Below, piece after piece: positions 23,380 through 25,724 of a DNA stretch of 37,823 bases. The notes under the pieces were generated by a model, which worked only from the letters and a program-made list of their open reading frames with translations, was not told the DNA's origin and made no database searches. The DNA is taken from positions 1 through 37,823 of the forward strand of contig JAUXAW010000006.1 in assembly GCA_030619715.1 (NCBI GenBank), written 5' to 3'. Each line of letters begins with the position of its first letter. Position 1 is the stretch's first letter. Origin of the DNA: a candidate division WWE3 bacterium. Lineage in GTDB: Bacteria > Patescibacteriota > WWE3 > JAUXAW01. The position numbers were made by a program, and so were the translations under genes.

Positions 23380-23616
23380 TTACTGCGCTGGCCCTCTTTG
23401 GCGGCCATGGCGTATCCGCACCCCAGCGGTGGGCCACGCTCGCAACCAGGCTGAACACCCACCATTGACCCCACGCGGTTTCTGGCGAGGGTGGGTGGCT
23501 GCTGGACGCGGGCGGACGATCACCGGCTCCTCCACCCTAGGCTTCTCAGCGCGCTGGAAAAACCGATCCCATAACCGCCGCAGGAAACTACGTACCTGAT
23601 CGAAAAACTCTCGCAT
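23380..23616 (-). CDS. Small 78-residue protein, amphipathic N-terminus
   Basis: MREFFDQVRSFLRRLWDRFF is a strongly amphipathic basic helix; the rest is Pro/Arg-rich and probably disordered. It has a full expression unit: TTGACA-17-TATAAA promoter, GAAAGGAGAG site before the ATG, and its own terminator, so it is likely real despite the odd composition. It could bind membrane or nucleic acid; no family recognised. Confidence 0.7.
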   Translation of the reverse strand: MREFFDQVRSFLRRLWDRFFQRAEKPRVEEPVIVRPRPAATHPRQKPRGVNGGCSAWLRAWPTAGVRIRHGRQRGPAQ

Positions 23617-23679
23617 TGGTCTTTCTCTCCTTTCGCTATGAATGATTGACCCGCCGATCTTCCGGATTTGCGTAGTCTA

Positions 23680-23708
23680 TTTATACCACAAACCAACCCT
23701 CCTGTCAA
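23680..23708 (-). promoter_or_regulatory. Promoter of the 23380 gene
   Basis: TTGACA (23703-23708), 17-nt spacer, TATAAA (23680-23685) on the minus strand. Confidence 0.85.
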
Positions 23709-23724
23709 GTGCTAGAGGACAGAC

Positions 23725-23753
23725 TTGACACGGTTTTAAAATTGTGTTATTTT
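23725..23753 (+). promoter_or_regulatory. Promoter of the T-box leader
   Basis: TTGACA (23725-23730), 17-nt spacer, TATTTT (23748-23753). It is back to back with the promoter at 23680-23708. Transcription would start near 23760. Confidence 0.65.
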
Positions 23754-23775
23754 ATAGTCACAATTTAACCAAAGG

Positions 23776-24084
23776 CGCTAATTATCAAGGAATAGTAGGT
23801 TGGGAGGTGGGTTGCTAGCGAGTCAACGACGGTGGAAGGTTGACAACCACGAGCAAGCCGAACACGCCTTGAGACCCTAAGAGAAAATCGAAGGGGCGCT
23901 GCTCGGGGGAAATACCGAGACGGTAAGTTCGGCCGTAATAAATGGACACCCGGTGTCGTAAAAACGGAGCCGGGATTGAGTGGTCAGACTGAGCAATCGG
24001 TTTGGCAACAAGGATGGGACCGCGGAGGTTCAAAAAGGCCTTCGTTCCTTTATCACGAAAGTGGTAGGTGAACGAGGGCTTTTT
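23776..24084 (+). promoter_or_regulatory. T-box riboswitch, predicted tRNA-His sensor
   Basis: AACAAGGATGGGACCGCG (24007-24024) matches the T-box consensus AANNAGGGUGGNACCGCG at all but one fixed position. TTCGTTCCTT (24041-24050) can pair with AAGG and GCGGA to form the antiterminator. Alternatively GCCTTCGTTC (24038-24047) pairs with GAACGAGGGC (24070-24079), then TTTTT: a terminator. Upstream is a short specifier hairpin: GGTTGCT/AGCAAGCC and GTCAAC/GTTGAC enclose an internal loop with AACCACG, which holds the His codon CAC. Stems CCTTGAG/CTCGGGG, TACCG/CGGTA and GACACC/GGTGTC follow. The UGGN base is G, which calls for C73, the tRNA-His discriminator. hisS lies downstream. This 506-nt gap holds no gene. 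Confidence 0.9.
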
Positions 24085-24122
24085 GCGTTTAGCCCTCAAA
24101 ATACAAAGAAAGGAGGTTGAGG

Positions 24123-24317
24123 ATGAGCTTAGAACAGGTGGTGGAAATCAGAGGTAGGCTGTGGCAGATTCTGGCAGATCTCAGATCCCTGGCGAAAGAC
24201 AACAAAGCCAGCAATAAGGCCCCATTCAGTAACGAGCGTCTAGCCGACGCAATCGGCATCATCAAAGACGAGCTGGGATGCCACGTAAAACCACCGGGGC
24301 CGCTGAGCCCCCACTAG
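24123..24317 (+). CDS. 64-residue ORF directly behind the T-box
   Basis: ATG 24123 follows AGGAGG by 6 nt; the track's start is an upstream TTG. The product MSLEQVVEIRGRLWQILADL... is helical in its first half, with DELGCHVKPPGPLSPH at the end. It contains only two His, so it is not a His-rich leader peptide. It is the first gene under T-box control. No family recognised. Confidence 0.65.
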   Translation: MSLEQVVEIRGRLWQILADLRSLAKDNKASNKAPFSNERLADAIGIIKDELGCHVKPPGPLSPH

Positions 24318-24339
24318 ACAAAGAAGGGGAGGGGAACGA

Positions 24340-24394
24340 GGGGTAGGAGAGGAAGTCTAAAGCTTGCACTAAAGGGCTTCCTCCCTACTCCCCC
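24340..24394 (+). terminator. Long hairpin between the 64-residue ORF and hisS
   Basis: GGGGTAGGAGAGGAAG pairs imperfectly with CTTCCTCCCTACTCCCC around a 21-nt loop, followed by ATCACATTTT. It may partly terminate T-box transcripts. A possible separate hisS promoter (TTGAAG-18-TAGGAT) starts at about 24411. Confidence 0.5.
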
Positions 24395-24455
24395 ATCACA
24401 TTTTAGATAATTGAAGAACAAGAATCAAAAGTGTTAGGATGAAGGAGGATTAATT

Positions 24456-25724
24456 ATGAATAAAAAAATTAAGCCACAAACACTTAAAGGCTTCCGAGAT
24501 TTTTTGCCGGATGAGATGAGAATCCGGAATTTTGTGTTGGGAGTTTGCAAAGAAGTTTTTGAATCTTTTGGGTTTGAGCCGTTGGAGACACCGTCGCTGG
24601 AATACGCTTCAACCTTGCTGGGAAAATACGGCGAGGAAGCCGACCGTTTGGTTTACACCTTCAAAGACCGCGGCGACCGCGAGGTTGGTTTAATTTATGA
24701 CCTGACTGTCCCCGTCAGCCGCGTCCTAGCCACCTACCGCGACGAGATTTCGCTGCCTTTTAAGCGCTACCAAATCCAGCGCGTCTGGCGAGCGGAAAAA
24801 CCGCAAAAAGGCCGCTTTCGCGAATTTGTTCAGTGTGATTTTGATATTTTTGGGGTTGCTTCTCCTCTAGCCGACGCCGAAATTATTGCCGTGATTTATC
24901 AGGTCCTCAAAAAATTAGGTTTTGATGACTTCAAAATTCGTATCAATTCCCGTCCCCTCCTCTTTTCTATCCTAGAGGAAGTAGGAATAACGGAAAAAAA
25001 TCAGCAGCTTGAAGTCTTGCGTATCGTCGACAAACTCGATAAACTGCCAGAGGAAAAGCTTATCGAAGACTTGCAAAAAAAGAATTTATCTTATTCGACA
25101 TGCGATCGCTTGCTAAACATGATAAAGCAAACTGTCCCAGATGAAAATACTGAGAGGATACTGAGTTACCTCCAGGCAATGGGCCTAGAGGAGAAATACT
25201 ATTGTTTTGATCCTACTCTTGTCCGCGGTTTAGACTATTACACCGGCCCGATTTTCGAGGCGGTCGTCGGAGATTCCAAGAATAGTGTTGCCGGCGGTGG
25301 AAGATATGACAACCTGATCAAGCAGATGGGTGGACCAAATGTTCCCGCCACCGGCTGCTCCCTCGGCCTCGACCGCATCTGTGAAATTCTTTCAGAGCGA
25401 GGCTCTGCAAATAAGCTCAACCAAGCCGAAACGCAGGTCCTCGTTACCATCTTCGACGAATCACTAGTTGATGAGTCTTTGAAACTTACTACCATGCTGC
25501 AGAGTATGGATGTTTTTACCGAAATCTATCTTGACCCCTCCGCCAAACTCGACAAACAGCTCAAGTATGCCGATCGGAAAGGAATACCCTATGTCGTTAT
25601 CCTTGGACCGGATGAGATCAAAAGTAATAAAGTGACGATCAAAGATTTAAGAACTGGTGAGCAGGAGATGGTCGGACGTAAAGATTTAGTAAATTTTCAA
25701 TTCTCAAATCCCAATTTTCAATGA
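24456..25724 (+). CDS. hisS: Histidyl-tRNA synthetase
   Basis: Product of 422 residues. Class II core: LKGFRDFLPDE start, motif 2 RYQIQRVWRAEKPQKGRFREFVQCDFDIFG, the His-specific LVRGLDYYTGPIFE loop, motif 3 TGCSLGLDRI, then the anticodon-binding domain (QVLVTIFDE ... RKGIPYVVILGPDE). The ribosome site AAGGAGG is strong. The last ten residues, NFQFSNPNFQ, are not part of the family; they are encoded by the TTTTCAA repeat array which also provides the stop. Confidence 0.97.
   Translation: MNKKIKPQTLKGFRDFLPDEMRIRNFVLGVCKEVFESFGFEPLETPSLEYASTLLGKYGEEADRLVYTFKDRGDREVGLIYDLTVPVSRVLATYRDEISLPFKRYQIQRVWRAEKPQKGRFREFVQCDFDIFGVASPLADAEIIAVIYQVLKKLGFDDFKIRINSRPLLFSILEEVGITEKNQQLEVLRIVDKLDKLPEEKLIEDLQKKNLSYSTCDRLLNMIKQTVPDENTERILSYLQAMGLEEKYYCFDPTLVRGLDYYTGPIFEAVVGDSKNSVAGGGRYDNLIKQMGGPNVPATGCSLGLDRICEILSERGSANKLNQAETQVLVTIFDESLVDESLKLTTMLQSMDVFTEIYLDPSAKLDKQLKYADRKGIPYVVILGPDEIKSNKVTIKDLRTGEQEMVGRKDLVNFQFSNPNFQ

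Follow-up and report, generated by a model that had tools for sequence, protein, structure and literature searches.

What is the leader ahead of hisS in a candidate division WWE3 bacterium, which tRNA would it sense and which gene would it control? In the window analyzed (37,823 nucleotides of contig JAUXAW010000006.1), positions 23785-24084 of the + strand are a complete transcriptional T-box leader with specifier CAC and T-box UGGG. With a probability of about 0.92, we take this leader for a class I T-box riboswitch that attenuates transcription and responds to tRNA-His(GUG). A T-box here had been proposed from the letters alone in a preliminary description, and Infernal bears it out: the full RF00230 model matches with a score of 66.2 bits and, for the stretch searched, an E-value of 2.8e-14 over 23779-24052 and model positions 1-219, i.e., its whole length. 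Because this score lies under the Rfam curated cut-off of 93 bits, a default Rfam scan of the window called no T-box. RF00230 matches were obtained in five of 14 control genomes, including B. subtilis, L. lactis, and C. glutamicum, and one further match (48.9 bits) was found on a different contig of the 674-kb genome. The elements of the locus, with coordinates checked base by base, are as follows.

23725-23753, + strand: sigma-70-like promoter TTGACA-17-TATTTT with extended -10 TG (10/12 consensus matches)
23785-23872, + strand: Stem I, long form (RF00230 alignment, coordinates, covariation in seven sequences)
23863-23865, + strand: specifier CAC, a His codon, with the usual purine after it, G 23866 (sequence, seven-leader alignment)
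23920-23936, + strand: Stem IIA, ACGG..CCGT, the F-box region (RF00230 alignment)
23949-23974, + strand: accessory hairpin CCCGG-TGTCG..CGGAG-CCGGG, inserted in addition to the elements of the RF00230 consensus
23978-24008, + strand: GAGTG (RRRNG), Stem III (GTCAGACTGA/TCGGTTTGGC), and AA (sequence)
24010-24050, + strand: antiterminator with T-box bulge UGGGACC at 24015-24021 (coordinates checked)
24033-24084, + strand: intrinsic terminator that competes with the antiterminator; its 3' arm is GAACGAGGGCTTTTT (MFE folding)
24123-24317, + strand: 64-aa ORF with a strong Shine-Dalgarno; no significant family match in a family search
about 24339-24394, + strand: strong, GC-rich hairpin separating the 64-aa ORF from hisS, with a poor U-tract
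24456-25724, + strand: hisS, histidine--tRNA ligase (TIGR00442, 414.8 bits versus a cut-off of 286.75)

The leader belongs to the class I T-box family, all testable defining features other than Stem II being present. The promoter is the only + strand site in 23600-24500 and is weak, with 0.9 such sites expected by chance on both strands. Stem I rises from a base helix, TCAAGG/CCTTGA, through a specifier loop of AATAGTA opposite GAACACG to a long upper stem, whose distal helix GTCAAC/GTTGAC is capped by the T-loop GACGGTGGAAG (23828-23838). In class I T-boxes, it is this distal module of Stem I that contacts the elbow of the tRNA (see also PMC7583486). The preliminary description had placed CAC in the internal loop of a short hairpin; the codon does lie in the specifier loop, but the hairpin is not short, and the very short, Actinobacteria-like Stem I suggested there gives way to a long class I form with the distal T-loop motif. 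A reduced Stem I of the Actinobacteria type was also considered in its own right and ruled out, the distal helix and T-loop having a counterpart in seven of seven aligned leaders; the reduced form is that of the second T-box (Trp) of this genome. A candidate Stem II/S-turn sequence, AGAGAAAA, stands at 23880-23887, its helix not cleanly made out in the window sequence. Farther downstream, the RRRNG-Stem III-AA discriminator motif defined in PMC7778990 is present, with GAGTG at 23978-23982 and AA at 24007-24008.

A hairpin with the conserved TGTCG/CGGAG core of the accessory hairpin lies between Stem IIA and Stem III in about ten leaders besides that of the window. Among 184 T-boxes, 12 carry the motif with a complementary outer helix (0.65 expected from shuffles), one of which, L242, resembles a chance match.

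The T-box sequence claimed earlier is present as AACAAGGATGGGACCGCG from 24007, with UGGG at 24015-24018. The antiterminator is made up of AAGGA/TCCTT, the bulge TGGGACC, and GCGGAG/CTTCGT, and the base of helix A2 is a G-U pair, to which PMC7583486 ascribes the rejection of tRNA with an amino acid on its 3'-OH. When 24007-24090 was folded, the terminator form came out at −37.1 kcal/mol, against −22.7 kcal/mol when the antiterminator was enforced. The two structures are mutually exclusive, with energies in the right order, and compete over a common stretch, 24040-24047 (CTTCGTTC), as had been described. Some T-boxes, chiefly in Actinobacteria, act at translation (PMC7583486), and the 3' structure might likewise hide a ribosome-binding site; this is very improbable here, since the hairpin that competes with the antiterminator is an intrinsic terminator, complete with U-run, and ends well upstream of the nearest Shine-Dalgarno.

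The partner tRNA is encoded in the same genome. ARAGORN, applied at the tRNA loci, identified a single tRNA-His among 41 tRNAs typed (43 Rfam matches, two untyped), with anticodon GUG, acceptor gtgctcg/cgagcac, discriminator C73, an encoded CCA, and an encoded G-1. Because this sole typed tRNA-His has GUG and C73, both tRNA contacts match: CAC is complementary to GUG, and UGGG to the CCCA end. The deduction of C73 from the G of UGGN, made beforehand, was correct for this tRNA and also holds across the phylum.

In the proposed mechanism, the nascent RNA would capture tRNA-His through Stem I, where CAC pairs with GUG and the distal T-loop motif assists, while UGGG would probe the 3' end (CCCA). 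Uncharged tRNA-His would stabilize the antiterminator, and polymerase would read into the 64-aa ORF and hisS; with charged tRNA-His, the terminator would be free to form. The single histidine-pathway gene searched, hisD, was not found in the genome, consistent with histidine auxotrophy. Given a cell that appears unable to make histidine, the switch would tune the synthetase level to outside supply, from the host or the surroundings.

RF00230 matches were found in 24 of 45 genomes of the class, and six relatives (G004, G010, G012, G026, G033, and G039) carry a His-type leader with CAC at the same position. In Stem I of the window and these relatives, 21 of 26 pairs are changed on both sides and 88.3% of cells in the alignment are paired, bearing out the expectation of conserved pairing in relatives. 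The covariation score was 0.788, as compared to 0.308 for shuffled and at most 0.255 for slid alignments, in a small set of seven sequences whose relatedness the shuffles do not preserve and for which the slide control is favorable by construction, the structure having been derived partly from the same seven. An RF00230 score under the curated cut-off would also suit a decayed or chance look-alike without function; however, all functional contacts tested are intact, compensatory changes pervade Stem I, and the specificity bases fit both tRNA and gene, making this the least probable of the readings considered. A covariance model built from the seven CAC leaders brought up no further leader of this kind within the class, and gave weaker matches elsewhere in the phylum.

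The identity of the downstream gene as hisS, proposed at the outset, is confirmed by its TIGR00442 score. Among the relatives, the His T-box stands directly before hisS in G033 and before a 272-aa ORF and then hisS in G012; the leaders of G004 and G010 precede unknown ORFs, and those of G026 and G039 precede a tRNA-His gene. The predicted link between His T-box and hisS thus rests on two relatives (G033 and G012) plus this genome. In the only close named hisS relative, from Chisholmbacteria (L032), no T-box was found ahead of hisS.

Since the 64-aa ORF and a hairpin of −33.6 kcal/mol (fold of 24318-24400) intervene, hisS might be partly uncoupled from the T-box. Taken further, the T-box could be real but regulate the 64-aa ORF, with the hairpin at 24339-24394 ending the transcript and hisS having its own promoter. 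The strong Shine-Dalgarno of the ORF, the stability of the hairpin behind it, and the unknown ORFs behind the His leaders of G004 and G010 would accord with such an arrangement, as would the Trp T-box of this genome, which has the same layout of tRNA, ORF, GC-rich hairpin, and a trpS preceded by TATAAT. We nevertheless regard it as unlikely: a promoter scan came up empty for the + strand from 24085 to 24456, the U-tract behind the hairpin is poor, the T-box of G033 is immediately upstream of hisS, and most T-boxes across the phylum stand upstream of synthetases. Control of hisS by the T-box, with readthrough of the small ORF, is favored from the gene arrangements, because the T-box adjoins hisS in G033 and is separated from it by an ORF in G012.

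A T-box in a Patescibacterium had been thought unusual; it is instead common, with RF00230 matches (E 0.001 or better) in 127 of 380 genomes of an even phylum sample, about a third. The CPR-like placement suggested by the first reading is supported by small genomes (here 674 kb, 92% complete), by the lack of ribosomal protein uL30 in all 20 genomes in which it was looked for, this one included, and by the best named relative of hisS, from a Chisholmbacteria MAG (48%). From the phylum, 184 leaders were collected, the UGGN base being read automatically and the downstream gene assigned by rough sequence motifs, crude labels that leave about half of the 184 loci unlabeled. The base was A before thrS (11/11) and glyS (11/11), T before proS (9/9), C before serS (3/3), trpS (3/3), and asnS/aspS (13 of 15 readable), and G before hisS (3/3). 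The tRNA discriminators of this genome are U73 for Thr and Gly, A73 for Pro, G73 for Ser, Asn, Asp, and Trp, and C73 for His. The UGGN base thus tracks the downstream synthetase, in a partition that agrees with these discriminators.

Other targets were also noted among these leaders. Four UGGC (G73 type) leaders (L014, L017, L018, and L174) lie upstream of a glycosyl transferase family 3/TrpD-like gene. Six T-boxes (L003, L005, L009, L010, L183, and L142) lie upstream of aspartoacylase-like, GCS2-like, and ATP-grasp-like genes, which suggests that amino-acid ligase pathways may be under T-box control at these loci.

Several leaders of the phylum stand directly ahead of tRNA genes. Of the 179 leaders whose downstream sequence is long enough, seven are followed by a same-strand tRNA starting 42-61 nt past the match end; an eighth locus, L031, was left out of this count only by a contig end. 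The eight loci are as follows.

Trp, this genome (L002 1501-1834; G000:C13:25379-25712), the second T-box of the genome: UGG in the 8-nt loop of a mini Stem I, UGGC versus G73, terminator; tRNA-Trp
Tyr, G323 and G201 (L251 and L291): specifier UAC; tRNA-Tyr
Arg, G266, G274, and G205 (L248, L250, and L254): specifier AGA; three tRNA-Arg genes each, the first UCU
His, L159 (G026:C5) and L031 (G039:C30): specifier CAC; tRNA-His

The isotype fits the specifier as read in all eight, which amount to about five independent cases; by estimate, chance would place approximately one same-strand tRNA, and approximately 0.05 with matching isotype, within 200 nt when all leaders are taken together. The recurrent order is T-box, terminator, cognate tRNA gene(s), often an uncharacterized ORF, and cognate synthetase. 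At the Trp, Tyr, and G026 His loci, the tRNA starts 4-7 nt past the last U-run (7 nt for Trp), leaving no space for a separate promoter between. The Arg tRNAs are possibly transcribed independently, because TATAAT lies between T-box and tRNA. The T-box-linked copy is the only tRNA-His found in G026, while G201 has a second tRNA-Tyr copy and this genome a second tRNA-Trp gene, of different sequence, elsewhere. A clear canonical UGGN antiterminator was not found in L159 and L031, putative charging sensors before tRNA-His; in L159, the UGGG of the accessory hairpin strand might serve.

Judging from these arrangements, we lean toward the view that some Patescibacteria T-boxes control transcription of the very tRNA that they sense (Trp, Tyr in two families, His in two genera, and Arg in three genomes). 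If so, the uncharged form of a tRNA would prompt synthesis of that same tRNA, closing a self-sensing loop. No paper on T-boxes placed before tRNAs was found among those that the literature search covered.

The ORFs of these operons were also inspected. In the Trp operon, the tRNA is followed by a 291-aa orphan ORF and trpS; no convincing homolog of the ORF was found in 96 genomes, and its AlphaFold model is unusable (pLDDT 45). Homologous unknown ORFs lie between tRNA-Tyr and tyrS at L251 (576-1475, + strand) and L291 (344-1171, − strand). Each of the top 50 Foldseek matches listed, obtained with a poor model (pLDDT 47.5), was a tyrosyl- or tryptophanyl-tRNA synthetase or an engineered version of one, the best with E 0.006; both ORFs touch the tyrosine--tRNA ligase model (E 0.006-0.007), and a PDB sequence search returned no match. 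As a lead only, these ORFs are possibly class Ic synthetase paralogs or cyclodipeptide-synthase-like enzymes.

Our literature search found no T-box description for the phylum, although the central distribution reviews fell outside its scope and earlier reports are possible; a 2024 review of Patescibacteria leaves T-boxes unmentioned and proposes riboswitches only as engineered tools (PMC11665869). The anatomy of the window T-box is ordinary, its setting phylum-wide and apparently undocumented; the broader interest lies in that spread and in the T-box-tRNA arrangements. The former would put attenuation by tRNA sensing into a phylum of bacteria with small genomes that is very large and mostly uncultured, and would offer native regulatory parts for Patescibacteria genetics; the latter raise the testable question of self-regulated tRNA supply. 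A His T-box would in addition fit an auxotrophic, host-dependent lifestyle.

Among known systems, the leader is closest in plan to the class I transcriptional T-box (RF00230; Bacillus subtilis tyrS), with which it shares a long Stem I, specifier loop, distal T-loop motif, Stem IIA, RRRNG..AA Stem III, UGGN-bulge antiterminator, and competing terminator; it differs in its Patescibacteria-type host, the TGTCG/CGGAG hairpin, and the small ORF before the synthetase. With the His-specific T-boxes of Firmicutes and Actinobacteria (his genes; named in PMC9413887), it has in common the amino acid and a his-related target. It differs in that the gene under its predicted control is hisS, not one of biosynthesis or transport, and in that the genome lacks hisD. 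The reduced or ultrashort Stem I T-boxes of Actinobacteria (ileS, translational) resemble instead the Trp T-box of this genome, which, in contrast to them, ends in a transcription terminator, whereas the window leader is set apart from them by its long Stem I.
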